From assembly GCA_028279885.1 (NCBI GenBank), contig JANQMX010000064.1, positions 62,001 through 126,000 of the forward strand: DNA of 64,000 nucleotides, read 5' to 3'. Position numbers and translations under genes: made by a program. Under the pieces are notes generated by a model. The model was not told where the DNA came from. It worked only from the letters and a program-made list of their open reading frames with translations, and searched no databases. Origin of the DNA: Rhodovibrionaceae bacterium (GTDB taxonomy: Bacteria > Pseudomonadota > Alphaproteobacteria > Kiloniellales > DSM-21159). Shown here piece by piece: positions 38,712 through 50,266 of this stretch; position 1 is the first letter of the stretch; each line of letters starts with the position of its first letter.

Positions 38712-38909
38712 GGCTGCCTCCTCACCCCTGCAGCGTATAATCCCGTCACCGCGCAGTCTGCCGCGAGATTGGGGCCGAATCTAGAACCCCAGCGGTTTGT
38801 TGTACTACGGTCGTATGCTCGGATTTCTCCCTATCGCCGGCCACCCTGGTGACGGAGCTTGGCCCACGAAGCGCTTGCATCGCCTCGCGTCTTGCGCTGA
38901 GTGAACGCG

Positions 38910-40046
38910 ATGACGAGCGAAGCGGGTCCCCAGGTGAGCGAAGCGGGTGCGCAAAGGCTGCCGAAAGCGGCCGGCGGCCCGCATACCTGGGTGTTGATGG
39001 GCCGCAAGGAGGGCGACAATCGCCAGCTCCAGGCCCTGGTCGAGATGCTCGGTTGGGCTTACGAAACCAAGCGCTTCGCCTATCGCCGGAGTGAACTGCT
39101 CACCAACCTGCTGCTTGGACCAAACCTCCACGGCATGCGTGCTGGCGAGTCGAGCCCCCTCAACCCGCCCTGGCCCGATCTGATCTTGACCGCCGGCCGG
39201 CGCAACGAGCCCATCGCCCGCTGGATAAAGCGCCAGTCCGGGGGGCGCACGAAGCTGGTTCATCTCGGCCGTCCCTGGGCTCGGCCGGAGGCTTTCGATC
39301 TCATCGTCACGACGCCGCAGTATCGTCTGCCGCCGCGCGCCAACATCCTGGAAAACGAAACGGTTATCCATGGCTTGGAGCCGGAGCGGCTCGCGGAAGC
39401 CGGAGAAGCGCTTGGGCGCAGGCTGCCCGACATGCCGCGGCCGCTGATCGCGGTGCTGGTGGGCGGCAGTGCCGGGCCCTTCACGCTCGATGCCGAGAGT
39501 GCGCGTCGCTTGGCGCAGGACGTAAAGGCGCTCGCCGAAAGGGAAGGCGGGACGCTGCTGGTTACGACCAGCGCCCGGACGACGCCGGAGGCCGCCGAGG
39601 CGTTGCAGCAGGCGCTGCCCGATGCCGGCCTGTTTCACCGTTGGCGGCTTGGCGATGCGGAGAATCCCTATCTCGGCCTGCTGGGATTGGCCGACATCCT
39701 GGTTGCGACGGGGGAGAGCATCTCCATGGCGACCGAAGCCTGCGCCACCGGCAAGCCAGTCTATCTCTTCGATATGGGGCGCAGCTGGTTTTCCATGCGC
39801 CGTCCGGCACGGCTGCCCGCCCTGCGCGAGCTGTTCGCCGACTACGATCGCCGCGCCCTGGTCTACCGTCTGGCGCTGGCCTTCGGGCCGCGGCGCTTGG
39901 TGCGCGACCTGCAGGTGGTGCCGGAGCGGCTGGTGGCCAGCGGTCGAGCGGCCTGGCTCGGCGATCCGGCGCCACAGGGCAGCCCGCCACCCTTGCGCGA
40001 CCTAGAACGGGCCGCGGAAGCTGTGAAGACGCTGTTCGCGGATTGA
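38910..40046 (+). CDS. ELM1/GtrOC1-family putative glycosyltransferase, copy A
   Basis: A 378-residue protein of the family named after plant mitochondrial fission factor ELM1; bacterial members look like GT-B glycosyltransferases and are linked to surface polysaccharides. Visible blocks: TWVLMGRKEGDNRQLQALVE at the start, PWPDLILTAGRRNEPIARWI, KLVHLGRPWA, LIVTTPQYRLP and the C-terminal ADILVATGESISMATEACAT with GKPVYLFDM, resembling a nucleotide-sugar site. ATG 38910 is chosen over GTG 38901. The first residues contain a repeated SEAG coded by a 13-bp direct repeat. A paralog lies at 43688–44779. Activity is inferred. Confidence 0.82.
   Translation: MTSEAGPQVSEAGAQRLPKAAGGPHTWVLMGRKEGDNRQLQALVEMLGWAYETKRFAYRRSELLTNLLLGPNLHGMRAGESSPLNPPWPDLILTAGRRNEPIARWIKRQSGGRTKLVHLGRPWARPEAFDLIVTTPQYRLPPRANILENETVIHGLEPERLAEAGEALGRRLPDMPRPLIAVLVGGSAGPFTLDAESARRLAQDVKALAEREGGTLLVTTSARTTPEAAEALQQALPDAGLFHRWRLGDAENPYLGLLGLADILVATGESISMATEACATGKPVYLFDMGRSWFSMRRPARLPALRELFADYDRRALVYRLALAFGPRRLVRDLQVVPERLVASGRAAWLGDPAPQGSPPPLRDLERAAEAVKTLFAD
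38915..38948. repeat. 13-bp direct repeat at the 5' end of ELM1 copy A
   Basis: GAGCGAAGCGGGT occurs at 38915–38927 and 38936–38948, a period of 21 bases (seven codons), so the repeat keeps frame and encodes a repeated SEAG. It looks like a recent small tandem duplication. Confidence 0.8.
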
Positions 40047-40142
40047 CCATAATACGCCGCTAGAACGTGCTAGTATTCCCTACAAAGAGTGTATCGCCCA
40101 CGCGTTGAGCGCGTAGGGGCGCAGAAAGGGAGGGACGAGACC

Positions 40143-40895
40143 GTGATCATCTATCCCGACATCGAGCTTATGGACGGCAAGTGCGTCAACGTTGCCCGCG
40201 GGCGACATGAAGAGCCTTTCGTCTTTCATGTCGATCCGATCAAGACAGCGCTCGACTTTCAGGAAGCCGGCGCGGAATGGCTGCATGTCGTCGACTACGA
40301 CGGCGTCTACGAAGGTGGCCGTCACAATGCCGAGTTGATCTGCGATATCATCAAAGCGGTGGAGATCCCCGTGCAGGTCGGCGGCGGCATCCGCACCACG
40401 GCCAGTGTCGAGTGGTGGTTTGAGCACGGCGCCGCCCGTCTTGTGCTCGGCACCGCCGCCGTAAAGGACCGGAACTTCGTCAAGGCCGTCTGCACCCATT
40501 ACCCCAAGCAGATCGTCATCGCCATCGACAGCCGGGGCGGCCACGTCGTGGTCGAGGGCTGGCAGGAAGAGACCATCTACACGCCGCTGGAGGTGGCTGC
40601 GGACTTTCAGGAGAGCGGTGCGGCCGCGATCATCTACACCGACATAGACCGCAACGAGGATCTCCCCGAAAGCGCCTTCGCCGGCACCACGGATCTCGCC
40701 TGCAGCCTCTCTATCCCGGTGATCTCGAGCGGCACGGTGCAGAGCCTGGACGACATCGCACGGCTCAACAACCTGCCGAACATCGCCGGCGCCGTCGTCG
40801 GCCGCGCCCTCTTCCGCAAGACCTTCAGCTTGGAAGAGGCGATCGCCGTCGCAAGCCAGAAGCCGACCCAGGCGGAGTTCGTGCGGACGCTTTAG
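40143..40895 (+). CDS. HisA-like phosphoribosyl isomerase paralog
   Basis: A 250-residue (βα)8 barrel of the HisA/HisF family. Like HisA it starts with IIYPDIELMDGKCVNVARG and has VQVGGGIRTTASVEWWFEHG, VLGTAAVKD, IAIDSRGGHVVVEGW and GAVVGRALFRKTFSLEEAI. Acid residues that match the two catalytic Asp of HisA (DIEL near the start; AIDSR mid-barrel) are kept. Two parts differ from true HisA: the usual SRDGT-type loop is DIDRNEDLPESAF, and the SSGG phosphate loop is ISSGTVQS. No other his gene is near. GTG 40143 follows GGGAGGG. So it may be a second HisA or a barrel with a new substrate. Confidence 0.75.
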   Translation: MIIYPDIELMDGKCVNVARGRHEEPFVFHVDPIKTALDFQEAGAEWLHVVDYDGVYEGGRHNAELICDIIKAVEIPVQVGGGIRTTASVEWWFEHGAARLVLGTAAVKDRNFVKAVCTHYPKQIVIAIDSRGGHVVVEGWQEETIYTPLEVAADFQESGAAAIIYTDIDRNEDLPESAFAGTTDLACSLSIPVISSGTVQSLDDIARLNNLPNIAGAVVGRALFRKTFSLEEAIAVASQKPTQAEFVRTL

Positions 40896-40915: not shown

Positions 40916-40971
40916 TTGCTGCTCTCACTAATTACCAATATATAAGATATGTTGGTAATTAGTGAGAGCAG
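40916..40971 (+). promoter_or_regulatory. parDE promoter embedded in a perfect 20-bp inverted repeat (operator)
   Basis: Arms at 40919–40938 and 40952–40971 are exact reverse complements (20 bp each, 13-base spacer). A -35-like TTGCTG (40916–40921) and a -10-like TATATA (40939–40944) are 17 bases apart, so the left arm fills the promoter spacer and the right arm starts at about +1. The ParD start lies 5 bases after the dyad. This is the layout expected for an autorepressed toxin–antitoxin promoter. Confidence 0.85.
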
Positions 40972-40975
40972 TGTT

Positions 40976-41227
40976 ATGGCGAAAACCACATCTATCGCCC
41001 TCGGCGAGCATTTCGAGAAATTCGTCGGGGGCCGTGTCGCTCAGGGTCGCTACGGTTCGGCCAGCGAGGTGGTGCGGGCCGGGCTGCGCCTTCTGGAAGA
41101 ACACGAGATGCGTTTGGAAGCGCTCCGAGCCGCTCTGGTCGAGGGTGAGGAAAGCGGCGAGCCGGAGGCCTTTGACAGCGACGCATTCCTGACGGAAATG
41201 CGTGCGCGCTATGCCGCGAAGGACTAG
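40976..41227 (+). CDS. parD: ParD-type antitoxin (ribbon-helix-helix)
   Basis: An 83-residue antitoxin that should bind its own promoter through an N-terminal ribbon-helix-helix and wrap the toxin with its C-terminal tail. Visible: [39 protein letters not shown] (about 3–41), the usual CopG/ParD DNA-binding unit, then an acidic linker ([15 protein letters not shown]) and a basic end. ATG 40976 sits immediately after the dyad; an upstream start at 40949 would be inside the operator. The toxin gene overlaps its 3' end. Confidence 0.92.
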
Positions 41228-41513
41228 CGGATACAGGCTGCTTCCCCGGGCTCGGGCGGATCTTGTAGAGATCTGGCGCTACAGCTTCGAAACTTGGTCG
41301 ATGGAGCAAGCGGATGACTACATCAGCAGGCTTGTCGAAGCCTTTGAGGCGGTAGCCGACGGCAGCAGAATAGGACGTCCGGCCGACCATATCCGGGAAG
41401 GCTATTTGAGCCTTCCCGTTGGCTCCCACCTAGTCTTCTACCGGACCGTCTCTGCGGAGATCCAAATCGTCCGCGTTCTCCACCAGCGCATGGACTTTCA
41501 GCGCCATCTTTAG
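41211..41513 (+). CDS. parE: ParE/RelE-superfamily toxin
   Basis: A 100-residue toxin of the ParE type (DNA gyrase poisons in characterised members). It has [34 protein letters not shown], then [25 protein letters not shown] and [18 protein letters not shown], the classic ParE strand pattern with HQRMD near the C-terminus. ATG 41211 overlaps parD by 17 bases; GTG 41202 is an alternative. The overlap implies coupled translation. Its TAG overlaps the stop of the convergent glycosyltransferase-like gene by 4 bases. Confidence 0.92.
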
Positions 41514-43687: not shown

Positions 43688-44779
43688 TCAGAAGAGGGCG
43701 CGAATACGCTCAGCAACCGCAGGCAACTCCGAGGGCAGGCAGTTGCCGCCGGCCGGACGTCTATCGCCAAAGGGAACGGCGTAGCCCTCTTCGATCAGGC
43801 GGGCATGCAGCGCCGAGAGGTTTCGTGGATAGCTGGCCAAGCCAAGGCGATAGAGCAGGCGCCCTGCTGGCCGTAATGCTGGGTGTCCCGTTTCTTCATC
43901 GACGGCCCGGCCAACGAGCTGCAGGCCGCGACGCCAGGGGTTGCTCGGTGGCGGCTGGCGATAGATCGCCAGTGGCCGCCCGAGGCCGGCAACCTCGACC
44001 AGCATGGAGATGCTGTCGCCGGTCACCACAAAGGCATCGCCGTGCGCCAGCAGGCCGAGATAGGGGTTCTCTTGCGCCTCGGGGGTCCAGCGGTGGAAAT
44101 GGGCTTCGGCCGGCATGGCTCGGGCCAAGGCTTCGGCAATATCCGGCGGCGTGCGGCGGCTGGTGCTCACATACAGGCTGCCGGACTCGGCGCGTGCCAG
44201 AGCCGCCGTGCGGTTCAACAGATCAAGCGCCAGTCCGCTGTCGAAGCGCAGAACCCGTTGCGGCCCGCCGATCAGCAGCACGACGAGGGGCTTGGGCAAG
44301 CCCGCCAGCCGGTTCTGCCAGGCTTGCTTGGCGCAGGTCAGCGCCGCTTCCTCGATACGGACCAGCGGATAGGCGAGCGGCATAACGTTCGGCGCAGAAG
44401 GCACGCGGAACTGGCTTGGTGCGATGACCAGGTCAAAGCGCTCGAGATGGCGCTGCGGTCGCCCAAGGTAGACAATGCGTGTTCGGCCGCCTGATTCGGC
44501 CTTGAGCCACAATAGGACCATGGCCATGCGCCGGCCCGCCGCGATCGCCAGCTTGGGCCAAGGCGGGTGAAGCTGGGCTGCGCTGGCTGGTTCGATATGG
44601 TCCAGCGAAGGACGCATGGCAGGCTTGGTGAACCGGAAGCGCTCTCGCACTGCTATTGGGACTTCAGCGGTCGTCCAGCCGAGCGCATTGGCGATCAAGC
44701 GGGCTTGCGCCGTATCGCCGAGTTTTTCACTTGTCAGGAGCCATGTCTTGGCAGGAGCAGGCATCAAGCGGTAAGCCAT
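43688..44779 (-). CDS. ELM1/GtrOC1-family putative glycosyltransferase, copy B
   Basis: A 363-residue paralog of the protein at 38910–40046. It shares the block order: TWLLTSEKLGDTAQARLIAN, PWPKLAIAAGRRMAMVLLWL, RIVYLGRPQ, LVIAPSQFRVPSAPN and the late HGDAFVVTGDSISMLVEVA with GRPLAIY. Similarity to copy A is clear over the C-terminal nucleotide-sugar-like region and weaker at the N-terminus, so these are old paralogs, not a fresh duplication. It starts a minus-strand run with the sulfotransferase (216 bases downstream) and the GT-like gene. Divergent from lptF. Confidence 0.8.
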   Translation of the reverse strand: MAYRLMPAPAKTWLLTSEKLGDTAQARLIANALGWTTAEVPIAVRERFRFTKPAMRPSLDHIEPASAAQLHPPWPKLAIAAGRRMAMVLLWLKAESGGRTRIVYLGRPQRHLERFDLVIAPSQFRVPSAPNVMPLAYPLVRIEEAALTCAKQAWQNRLAGLPKPLVVLLIGGPQRVLRFDSGLALDLLNRTAALARAESGSLYVSTSRRTPPDIAEALARAMPAEAHFHRWTPEAQENPYLGLLAHGDAFVVTGDSISMLVEVAGLGRPLAIYRQPPPSNPWRRGLQLVGRAVDEETGHPALRPAGRLLYRLGLASYPRNLSALHARLIEEGYAVPFGDRRPAGGNCLPSELPAVAERIRALF

Positions 44780-47229: not shown

Positions 47230-47946
47230 CTAGGACTCGAAAATGATCTGGACCCGGTCCGAGGCGAAGCGTGCGATACCGAACTCTATAGGAGTCTCGG
47301 CTTTGTCCACGTTGACGCTCTCGGTTACCAGAATCGGCCGACTCCGCGGCTGCTCCAGAGCCGCTGCTTCGCTGGCATCGGGCAGGCGGGCGATCACCCG
47401 GGTGGTTCGCCTGCGGTAGTCGGCACAGCCGAAGGACGCCAGCGCCTGACTGATCGAGAGCTCGCCCTTGAGCTTGTCCGGAAGCTCAGGAAAACGGGCA
47501 CAGGGAAAATGATGGCTGGCGAAGGTGATCGGTCGATCGTCGGCTTGGCGCAAGGTATTGATGCAATAGCAAGCTGCGCCATTCTCGATACCGAGGTGCC
47601 GCGCCAGTTCAGGCCCCGCCTCGATCACCTCGCTCGACAGCACGCGGCCGACCAGGCTACGCGCCTGACTGCCGACAATCTCGCTGAAGCGGGTCCGGGC
47701 GCCGATCAGGTAGTCGAGAATATGCTCTTCGACGAAGCTGCCGCGCCCTTGCTCGACACGGATAAGGCCTTCTTCAGCCATGGTCGAGAGCGCACGCCGA
47801 ACCGTATGGCGATTGACCGAGAAGCGCTGGGACAGCTCGGATTCGCTCGGCAGCTTGCTTCCGGGCGGGAACCCCCCACCTTCGATTTCCTCGGTCAGCG
47901 CGTTGTAAATGTAGCGCCAGAGTGTGAGGCCGGCTTGCCGTTCCAT
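47230..47946 (-). CDS. phnF: GntR/HutC-family regulator of phosphonate use
   Basis: Predicted repressor of the divergent C–P lyase operon. The 238-residue protein has an N-terminal winged helix (LWRYIYNALTEEIEGGGFPPG, LPSESELSQRFSVNRHTVRRAL, EGLIRVEQGRGSFV; about residues 9–75) and a C-terminal UTRA effector domain with chorismate-lyase-like fold (PITFASHHFPCARFPEL, ILVTESVNVD). This matches PhnF in structure and position. ATG 47946 is chosen; an earlier in-frame start at 47979 adds residues not typical of the family. The effector is not known, and control by the general phosphate regulon could act in addition. Confidence 0.88.
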   Translation of the reverse strand: MERQAGLTLWRYIYNALTEEIEGGGFPPGSKLPSESELSQRFSVNRHTVRRALSTMAEEGLIRVEQGRGSFVEEHILDYLIGARTRFSEIVGSQARSLVGRVLSSEVIEAGPELARHLGIENGAACYCINTLRQADDRPITFASHHFPCARFPELPDKLKGELSISQALASFGCADYRRRTTRVIARLPDASEAAALEQPRSRPILVTESVNVDKAETPIEFGIARFASDRVQIIFES

Positions 47947-48035
47947 TGCATCCACCGTCCAGAAAAGACGTGTCACCAAAGCTTAAAAAAGCCGAGGTTC
48001 CAACTTAAGCCGCATTCTGATAACCACTATGTTAG

Positions 48036-48075
48036 ATATCCGGACAACTATACAGATTGTCAATAGGTATATCCG
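48036..48075. promoter_or_regulatory. Candidate PhnF operator and phn control region
   Basis: GACAA–N9–TTGTC (48043–48047 and 48057–48061) is a dyad centred on CTATACAGA, similar in size to sites of HutC-type regulators. Two direct copies of ATATCCG (48036–48042, 48069–48075) flank it, 33 bases apart. The second copy touches the first possible phnG start. Confidence 0.5.
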
Positions 48076-48558
48076 ATGACTTGCAGTACTCGTGGAGAGG
48101 TCGCATCCGATGAGGGCCAGATGCGGCGTCAGGAATGGCTTTCCATCCTGGCTCAAGCCTCCCCTAAGGCGGTGGCCGATGCCGTGCGCACCGTCACGCC
48201 TCAGCCCTCCTACAAGCTGCTGCGCGCGCCTGAAAGCGGCATGATCATGCTGCGTGGCCGTGCCGGTGGCTCGGGTCGTCGCTTCAATCTCGGCGAAGCG
48301 ACCCTCACCCGCTGTTCGGTGAAGGTCGATGGCGGTTCGATCGGTCATGGCTATGTGCTTGGCCGTAGCCCGCAGCATGCCGAGCAAATCGCTTTGCTCG
48401 ACGCCTTGCTACAGGACCCTTCGCACCATCAGGACCTGTGGGACGCGGTGATCGCACCGCTGGCCAAGGCGCGGGCTGCCGAAAAGGACAGCAAGGCGCG
48501 CAAAACCGCGGCCACCAAGGTCGATTTCTTCACCATGGTGCGAGGCGAGAGCGAATGA
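48076..48558 (+). CDS. phnG: C–P lyase complex subunit PhnG
   Basis: Subunit of the PhnGHIJ core complex that turns phosphonates plus ATP into ribose triphosphonates. The protein has RRQEWLSILAQASPKAVADAV, the LLRAPESGMIMLRGRAGGSG block, FNLGEATLTRCSVKV, GYVLGRSPQHAEQIALLDAL and the C-terminal KVDFFTMVRGESE, matching E. coli PhnG throughout. The start at 48076 gives 160 residues; ATG 48121 (GAGGG upstream) gives 145, close to the family. Both are possible. It overlaps phnH by 4 bases (ATGA). Confidence 0.94.
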   Translation: MTCSTRGEVASDEGQMRRQEWLSILAQASPKAVADAVRTVTPQPSYKLLRAPESGMIMLRGRAGGSGRRFNLGEATLTRCSVKVDGGSIGHGYVLGRSPQHAEQIALLDALLQDPSHHQDLWDAVIAPLAKARAAEKDSKARKTAATKVDFFTMVRGESE

Positions 48559-49175
48559 CGGCGCATCCCGACTCGGCCGTTGAGATTGCCGCGGGCTTCC
48601 CCGATCCCGTGCTGGACAGCCAAGCGGCGTTCCGTGCGATCTTGGATGCCATGGCGCACCCTGGGCGCATCGCGACTGTTGGAATGCAGCTCAGTCCGCC
48701 AGCGCCGCTTGCGCCGGCCAGCTTGGCGTGCGTGCTCAGCCTCTGCGACCATGAGACGCCGCTTTGGCTCGACGACGCGGCAAGCAGTCTCGCCGCATCG
48801 TTCCGCTTTCACTGTGGGGCGCCGCTTGTCGGTGCGCCCGATAGGGCGGCCTTTGCGCTCTGTTGCGGCCCTCTGCCCGCGCTTGCCGGCTTTGGACAGG
48901 GGACGGCCGAATACCCCGAGCATTCGACCACGGTGATCTGTCAGGTTTCGGCGCTTGGGGACGGTGTGCCGATGACCTTACGCGGCCCGGGAATTGACGG
49001 CGGCCAGCAGCTCTCGGTTGCCGGACTGCCGGATGATTTCTCTGCACAATGGGCTGCCAATGGCGCACTCTTCCCCCAGGGCGTCGATGTCATCTTGACC
49101 CAGGGGCAGCGGCTCGTGGCCTTGCCGCGCAGCGTTAAGATCGAACCGGAGGTTGGGACATGTATGTCGCAGTAA
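48555..49175 (+). CDS. phnH: C–P lyase complex subunit PhnH
   Basis: Core subunit with a PLP-transferase-like fold lacking PLP, part of PhnGHIJ. The 206-residue protein has DPVLDSQAAFRAILDAMAHPG and the family pattern LCDHETPLWLDD, TAEYPEHSTTVICQV and LRGPGIDG, then LFPQGVDVILTQGQRLVALPRSV near the end. All blocks are present. It overlaps phnG by 4 and phnI by 16 bases. Confidence 0.94.
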   Translation: MTAHPDSAVEIAAGFPDPVLDSQAAFRAILDAMAHPGRIATVGMQLSPPAPLAPASLACVLSLCDHETPLWLDDAASSLAASFRFHCGAPLVGAPDRAAFALCCGPLPALAGFGQGTAEYPEHSTTVICQVSALGDGVPMTLRGPGIDGGQQLSVAGLPDDFSAQWAANGALFPQGVDVILTQGQRLVALPRSVKIEPEVGTCMSQ

Positions 49176-50266
49176 AAGGCGGCGAGCAGGCCATCGACAA
49201 TGCCCATCGCCTGCTGGCCGAGGAGCGGCGGGGCAACCCTGAGCAACAGGAGATCTCCGTCGCTCAGATCTCAGGACAACTGGCGCTGGCCGTCGATCGG
49301 GTGATGGCCGAGGGCTCGCTCTATGACCGGGAACTGGCGGCGCTGGCCATCAAGCAGGCGCGCGGCGACATGATCGAGGCGATCTTTCTGCTTCGTGCCT
49401 ACCGCACCACCTTGCCACGCTTCGGCTACAGCGAGCCTTTGCGCAGCGACCGCATGCAGGTGCGGCGGCGAGTCTCCGCCACTTTCAAGGATTTGCCCGG
49501 CGGCCAGCTGCTCGGCCCGACCTTCGACTATACCCATCGTTTGCTCGACATGACCTTGTTGGACGATGGCGAGCCGTCGGCCCAGCCTGCGGCCGAAAGG
49601 GTAGGTGAAAGCAGCGACGGACCTCTGCCGCGAGTCGTCGATCTGCTGAACGACGAAGGCTTGATCGAGACGGAGACACCGGCGGATGAGCGCGACGTCG
49701 GCGATTTAACGCGAGAGTCCCTGACCTTTCCGGCCGGCCGCGATCTGCGGCTGCAGAACCTGGCGCGCGCCGACGAGGGCTTTTTGCTCGGGCTCGGCTA
49801 TTCGACCCAGCGCGGCTACGGCAACAACCATCCCTTCGCCGGCGAGATACGCATGGGAGAGGTCGCCGTCGAGTTCGTGCCGGAAGAGCTCGGCTTTCCG
49901 ATCGAGATCGGCGAGATCACCGTCACCGAGTGTCAGATGATCAACCAGTTCCAAGGTTCGGAGCAGGCGCCGCCGCAGTTCACCCGCGGCTATGGGCTGG
50001 TCTTCGGGCAGAGCGAGCGCAAGGCCATGTCCATGGCGCTGGTCGATCGCGCTTTGCGGGCATCCGAACTGGGCGAGGAGGCGGAGAACCCGGCACAGGA
50101 TGAGGAATTCGTGCTCTATCACAGCGACAATGTGCAGGCGACCGGCTTCGTCGAGCACCTGAAGCTGCCTCACTACGTCGATTTCCAGTCCGAGCTGACG
50201 GTGTTGCGCCGGCTGCGCGCCGACTTCGAGACAGCATCGGGACCGGTACCGGAGGCCGCGGAATGA
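49160..50266 (+). CDS. phnI: C–P lyase complex subunit PhnI
   Basis: Nucleosidase subunit of the C–P lyase core; with PhnG, PhnH and PhnL it displaces adenine from ATP with the phosphonate. The 368-residue protein opens MYVAVKGGEQAIDNAH and has LALAVDRVMAEGSLYDRELAALAIKQARGD (about 39–68), then FLLGLGYSTQRGYGNNHPFAGEIR and DNVQATGFVEHLKLPHYVDFQSEL. These match the family. The start overlaps phnH by 16 bases and the stop overlaps phnJ by 4. Confidence 0.95.
   Translation: MYVAVKGGEQAIDNAHRLLAEERRGNPEQQEISVAQISGQLALAVDRVMAEGSLYDRELAALAIKQARGDMIEAIFLLRAYRTTLPRFGYSEPLRSDRMQVRRRVSATFKDLPGGQLLGPTFDYTHRLLDMTLLDDGEPSAQPAAERVGESSDGPLPRVVDLLNDEGLIETETPADERDVGDLTRESLTFPAGRDLRLQNLARADEGFLLGLGYSTQRGYGNNHPFAGEIRMGEVAVEFVPEELGFPIEIGEITVTECQMINQFQGSEQAPPQFTRGYGLVFGQSERKAMSMALVDRALRASELGEEAENPAQDEEFVLYHSDNVQATGFVEHLKLPHYVDFQSELTVLRRLRADFETASGPVPEAAE

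Follow-up and report, generated by a model that had tools for sequence, protein, structure and literature searches.

The window, a stretch of 64,000 nucleotides from a Rhodovibrionaceae bacterium, contains a gene encoding a HisA-like protein, with a potential ribosome-binding sequence directly before it:

40128-40133, + strand, Shine-Dalgarno-like GGGAGG, 9 nt 5′ of the GTG (a consensus match only)
40143-40895, + strand, HisA-like paralog coding sequence, 250 amino acids plus stop, GTG start

An alternative in-frame GTG at 40089 is possible; relatives, however, align from residue 1 of the 40143 start. Comparison of the gene with the same-genus copy L036, from a Rhodovibrionaceae MAG, by the NG86 method gave a dN of 0.048 and a dS of 0.503, a ratio of ~0.10. 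The full set comprised five pairs, three of them usable, one lacking a usable dS and one with saturated dS; the two further pairs gave ratios of 0.04 (0.021/0.482) and 0.11 (0.049/0.425). Judged from its sequence, the gene is real and under purifying selection. A pseudogene reading was dropped on account of the dN/dS of ~0.1.

The neighbouring genes in the window encode an ELM1-like protein, an M48 protease, ParD/ParE, a sulfotransferase, LptF/G and phn products. Two genes matching PF06258 (mitochondrial fission ELM1-like) lie within 5 kb, at 38901-40046 (+) and 43688-44779 (-), and a GntR/UTRA regulator adjoins the phn (C-P lyase) genes, including PhnI, at 47230-50266. An inverted repeat (25 nt, 96% complementary, 3 nt apart) at 40919-40971, just upstream of the ParD/ParE pair (40949-41513), is probably a ParD/ParE operator or a bidirectional terminator. 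ABC-transporter-type families excepted, L036 is the one locus compared that shares the window neighbours. Across 15 loci (the window and L036-L049), no partner gene common to the family was found beyond pairs of close relatives. A function read from the window neighbours was dropped, as these genes are common only to the same-genus locus. At L047 and L048, the paralog lies upstream of pyruvate dehydrogenase genes, named by sequence reading. The loci L039 and L043, whose HisA-like proteins are 83% identical, share a 91-amino acid frame with 100% identity (L039 5937-6209 and L043 9369-9641), possibly a conserved RNA or a very conserved small gene.

The protein matches PF00977 (His_biosynth) at 203.6 bits over residues 3-228, well above the cutoff of 23.6, which makes it a member of the superfamily. 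Against TIGR00007, the HisA equivalog model, it scores 214.4 bits, below the cutoff of 228.95. Membership of the related families was discarded on scores below their cutoffs: TIGR01919 (PriA), 124.8 against 306.45 bits; TIGR00735 (HisF), 71.8 against 294.55; TIGR00734 (HisA/HisF-related), 27.2 against 179.85; WbuZ, 76 against 300; and AglZ/HisF2, 72 against 310. An AlphaFold2 model of the protein has a mean pLDDT of 91.4 and a pTM of 0.89, with lower confidence at loop 6 (residues 171-180, average pLDDT 61) and in the C-terminal tail. The closest solved structures are PriA/HisA (2y88, Z 33.8, rmsd 1.7, 234 aligned residues; 5a5w, Z 33.2, rmsd 1.8, 237 aligned), with HisF structures a few Z units lower (1h5y, Z 29.8). 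A fold common to HisA/PriA and the paralog is no proof of function.

A genome-wide profile search of the assembly (5.6 Mb, 100% complete by computed estimate) located a canonical hisA adjoining hisF on contig C45, away from the window contig. This HisA scores 263.9 bits with TIGR00007, above the cutoff, and is 44% identical to the window protein. hisB is nearby, also on C45, and hisI is on contig C29, while the 64-kb window holds no PF00977 match besides 40143-40895. As the C45 HisA lies above the TIGR00007 cutoff and the window protein below it, the window gene is a second, non-canonical copy, and the reading as the organism's only HisA was dropped. The first-pass annotation had called the gene a HisA paralog outside any his operon; both parts of that description hold, and the presence of hisA beside hisF on C45 speaks against its being simply HisA. 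The barrel of the window protein derives from HisA, but the organism's own HisA is the C45 protein.

The same coexistence is seen in other carriers of the paralog. A TIGR00007 search of 62 carrier genomes, a list that excludes G004, which was recognised as a carrier afterwards, gave matches in all 62 and a canonical hisA above the cutoff in 61. Among the matches listed, paralogs scored 137-221 bits and canonical copies 252-273 bits. The one carrier without an above-cutoff HisA, G318 (L121, L199), has a paralog at 191 bits; its other match, at 141 bits, is presumably hisA or hisF in a divergent form.

Genome G001, of the same genus, has the nearest copy (91% identity). Among named genomes, a scan found at least 14 family loci at 47-91% identity, with canonical HisA then following at ≤47%; they belong to Rhodovibrionaceae, Pelagibius, Kiloniellaceae, Aestuariivirgaceae, other Hyphomicrobiales and unplaced alphaproteobacterial MAGs. 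Family-profile matches of at least 290 bits were present in 7 of 385 genomes sampled evenly from the class (best other match 278), and matches of at least 300 bits in 6 of 398 genomes of a phylum sample, all from the same class. At least 6 of the 98 nearest relatives carry a copy, a count in which divergent copies overlap HisA scores and may be missed. In the genome family f30, which we infer to be Rhodobacteraceae, 53 of 198 genomes match an f30 copy at E 1e-60. Plasmid searches with the window protein and with an f30 copy yielded ≤46% identity among the matches listed. In a tree built by a quick method from 32 of the 52 paralogs, 42 of 99 HisA and 5 HisF sequences, the paralogs form a single branch (100 SH-aLRT) apart from both HisA and HisF, with a stem length of 0.82 changes per column. 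The branch may have originated inside alphaproteobacterial HisA or before it. No paper on this HisA-like subfamily was found in the literature searched, most subscription journals being outside its coverage.

To compare active-site residues, 52 paralog family members were aligned with 99 canonical HisA. The latter derive from 102 canonical loci, reduced to 100 rows by removal of near-duplicates; L022 (genome G004), initially a HisA row, was transferred once the tree had shown it to be a paralog, which left 99 and 52. Both sets were collected by similarity to the window protein and are therefore not a random sample. Mt and Se residue numbers were transferred via alignment offsets to residues named in excerpts of PMC13055916, PMC9088769 and PMC7591586. 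The positions concerned are, in the window:

40164-40166, + strand, Glu8 codon, where solved HisA/PriA and the genome's own HisA have, by alignment, their first catalytic residue, an Asp (Se D7, Mt D11)
40188-40190, + strand, Asn16 codon, replacing the loop-1 Arg (Mt Arg19)
40392-40394, + strand, Arg84 codon, retaining a gripper of the distal phosphate (Mt Arg85, Se R83); R in 47/52
40452-40454, + strand, Thr104 codon, likewise retaining a gripper of the distal phosphate (Mt Thr105, Se S103); T or S in 50/52
40527-40529, + strand, Asp129 codon, retaining the Asp of beta-5 (Mt D130, Se D129); D in 51/52
40560-40562, + strand, Trp140 codon, retaining the stacking Trp of loop 5 (Mt/Se W145); W in 52/52
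40641-40679, + strand, altered loop 6 (DIDRNEDLPESAF), with the Asn171 codon at 40653-40655
40725-40736, + strand, altered loop 7 (SSGT for the ASGG of the genome's own HisA), the reacting-side phosphate motif

In the available excerpts of PMC13055916, PMC9088769 and PMC7591586, Asp11 and Asp175 (Se D176) are the catalytic residues of HisA/PriA, Arg19 recruits Asp175, and Trp145 stacks on ProFAR. The distal (second) phosphate is held by Arg85/Thr105 (Se R83/S103) (PMC9088769, PMC13055916, excerpts), and the other phosphate motif is that of beta-7/alpha-8 (PMC7284861, excerpt).

The reacting side of the pocket differs throughout the family. At the Mt Asp11 position, the paralogs have E (50), A (1) or Q (1), against D in 99/99 HisA; at the Mt Arg19 position they have S (26), N (20) or T (6), against R in 99/99. 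The Gly following the loop-6 Asp is present in 99/99 HisA and 0/52 paralogs, and the second loop-7 Gly, again invariant in HisA (99/99), is V (20), T (15), L (15), I (1) or M (1). These four residues are replaced in 52/52 paralogs and in 0/99 HisA, so the changes are not due to chance. Two residues past the second loop-7 Gly, R, K, Q or H occurs in 51 paralogs, compared with mostly S or A in HisA, and the Tyr224 position is F in 50 of 52. Of the 52 members, 45 retain the Asp of loop 6, the second catalytic one (Mt D175, Se D176); by alignment, the window copy has Asn171 at this position, and its sister has Ser. Residues 171 and 172 are both changed in the window copy, whose loop 6 reads DIDRNEDLPESAF compared with DIERDGALEGPNV in the genome's own HisA. 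With Asn171, the window copy is, on this alignment, a less typical family member. The first-pass annotation was thus right about the alterations in loops 6 and 7 and mistaken in stating that the two Asp positions of HisA are kept: Glu8 and Asn171 occupy the catalytic Asp sites, and Asp129 alone is retained.

On the distal side, beyond the residues listed above, the Thr170 position (Thr166 in the window protein) is T or S in 50 of 52 paralogs, and the loop-8 Arg is kept in 52/52. Some distal positions drift, position 103 being G in 38, A in 10 and S in 4 of the 52. The G318 paralog has also lost Asp129. In alignment, then, the reacting half of the pocket is changed and the non-reacting half largely kept.

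The best reading of these patterns is a neofunctionalised paralog that would hold a phosphoribosyl ligand at the non-reacting half-site and perform other chemistry, or none; loss of the reaction-site parts together with a retained grip on one end of the substrate makes a different job probable, one carried out across many related bacteria. We give roughly even odds to a specific version, in which the HisA barrel, neofunctionalised after an old duplication, would have kept distal ribotide binding and catalyse a reaction other than ProFAR isomerisation. In this alphaproteobacterial family the old duplication is established from the sequences, and the change of function is what we propose. The distal half of the pocket, gripping through Arg84, Thr104, Trp140, Asp129 and Thr166, would bind a 5′-phosphoribosyl compound (AICAR-like or another monophosphorylated ribotide), and the Glu8/Asp129 pair would act on a head group that is different, smaller or without phosphate; the paralog would then be an enzyme of another reaction, with chemistry distinct from the Amadori rearrangement. 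That Glu8 and Asp129 are nearly invariant suggests that acid-base chemistry has been retained, and favours an enzyme over a sensor for the family overall; given Asn171 in the window copy and Ser in its sister, such chemistry may be weaker in the lineage of these two copies. Conservation of the distal site may partly be fold inertia. The earlier proposal of a substrate other than ProFAR, or of a regulatory role, is the likeliest reading. Its suggestion of a ligand with possibly one phosphate would fit, with the altered clamp placed at the reacting-side loop 7 and the distal grippers (Mt Arg85, Thr105) kept. A broader formulation is a class-specific family with a split pocket, the AICAR-ribotide half kept and the reacting half rebuilt, serving many Alphaproteobacteria as an AICAR/ZMP sensor or as a new ribotide enzyme of central metabolism; this is possible, and we advance it tentatively.

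A non-catalytic regulatory barrel, sensing an AICAR/ZMP-type ribotide or a histidine-pathway intermediate and acting via a protein partner, is in our judgement rather unlikely. Replacement of both catalytic Asp residues in the window copy, the retained distal ribotide grip and the lack of a consistent enzyme partner gene are all in keeping with it, and solved structures of the D7N, D176A and D11N variants of HisA/PriA contain ProFAR or PRFAR as ligand (structure titles; PMC9088769, excerpt). Yet Glu8 in 50/52 and Asp129 in 51/52 members look like kept catalysis, the loop-6 Asp is present in 45/52, and no partner or DNA-binding domain was seen. The paralog might instead be a second ProFAR isomerase, an isoenzyme or backup HisA using Glu as its base, since the fold and most distal substrate contacts are retained and the Pfam and HisA models match strongly, though under equivalog cutoffs. 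The Glu-bearing family could still slowly isomerise ProFAR; as the role of the protein, however, this is improbable, given paralog scores under the TIGR00007 cutoff, the changes at Mt Arg19, the loop-7 Gly and the post-loop-6-Asp Gly in 52/52 members, the alteration of both residues 171 and 172 in the window copy, and a canonical hisA in 61/62 carriers searched.

The remaining explanations carry still less weight. A role in fatty-acid synthesis is suggested by gene order in f30: of 33 loci, 24 have acpP on the same strand ≤2 kb upstream, 20 have fabF ≤2 kb downstream, and 19 have both. This linkage may be functional or may reflect positional inheritance, which is possible because other genes also occupy the acpP-fabF gap: a GNAT acetyltransferase or arginase-family gene sometimes lies there (L182-L186, L192, L194, L204-L206, L214), so the gap may be an insertion site. 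With neither gene near the paralog in 8/33 f30 loci, no tight gene overlap, and the arrangement absent from the window and from other lineages, we consider such a role very unlikely. That the gene is a decaying duplicate without function, as loss of the canonical catalytic residues might suggest, is scarcely credible: the frame is intact, dN/dS is ~0.1, and the paralogs form a single old clade with near-invariant residues of its own.

HisA, PriA and TrpF are a textbook case of enzymes changing substrate. The family studied here shares the HisA (TIGR00007) barrel, with PDB matches up to Z 33.8, and keeps Arg84/Thr104, Trp140, Asp129 and Thr166; it differs in having Glu for the catalytic Asp and in lacking the loop-1 Arg, the post-loop-6-Asp Gly and the second loop-7 Gly, and in the window copy, which lies outside a his operon, the Asp of loop 6 is missing as well. 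Because the strongest model matches are to HisA, database entries of the family probably carry the name ProFAR isomerase, which, if so, would mislead pathway reconstruction in Alphaproteobacteria. HisF and the AglZ/WbuZ HisF2 proteins belong to the same superfamily, with profile scores far under their cutoffs and HisF on a separate tree branch. Orf17/MJ0703, which we take to be the TIGR00734 HisA/HisF family, represents another subfamily, with which the window protein scores 27 bits (cutoff 180). It nonetheless offers a parallel, as a PF00977 protein with a non-histidine role that coexists with hisA/hisF: in Methylorubrum it is needed for methylofuran and occurs beside a complete hisA/hisF pair (PMC8141765, excerpt). 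PriA (the bifunctional HisA/TrpF of Actinomycetota), SubHisA, SubTrpF and AdeK are likewise HisA-derived barrels with a changed substrate, and structures of this group match the paralog model well (2y88, 3zs4, 4x2r); in contrast to the paralog, Asp11 and Asp175 are still marked catalytic there, in the available excerpts. SubTrpF2 has lost the distal grip (Arg85, Thr105 and Trp145 replaced; PMC13055916, excerpt), the reverse of the paralog. The present family has replaced the first Asp and the reacting-side clamp, has kept the distal grip, and coexists with canonical hisA.
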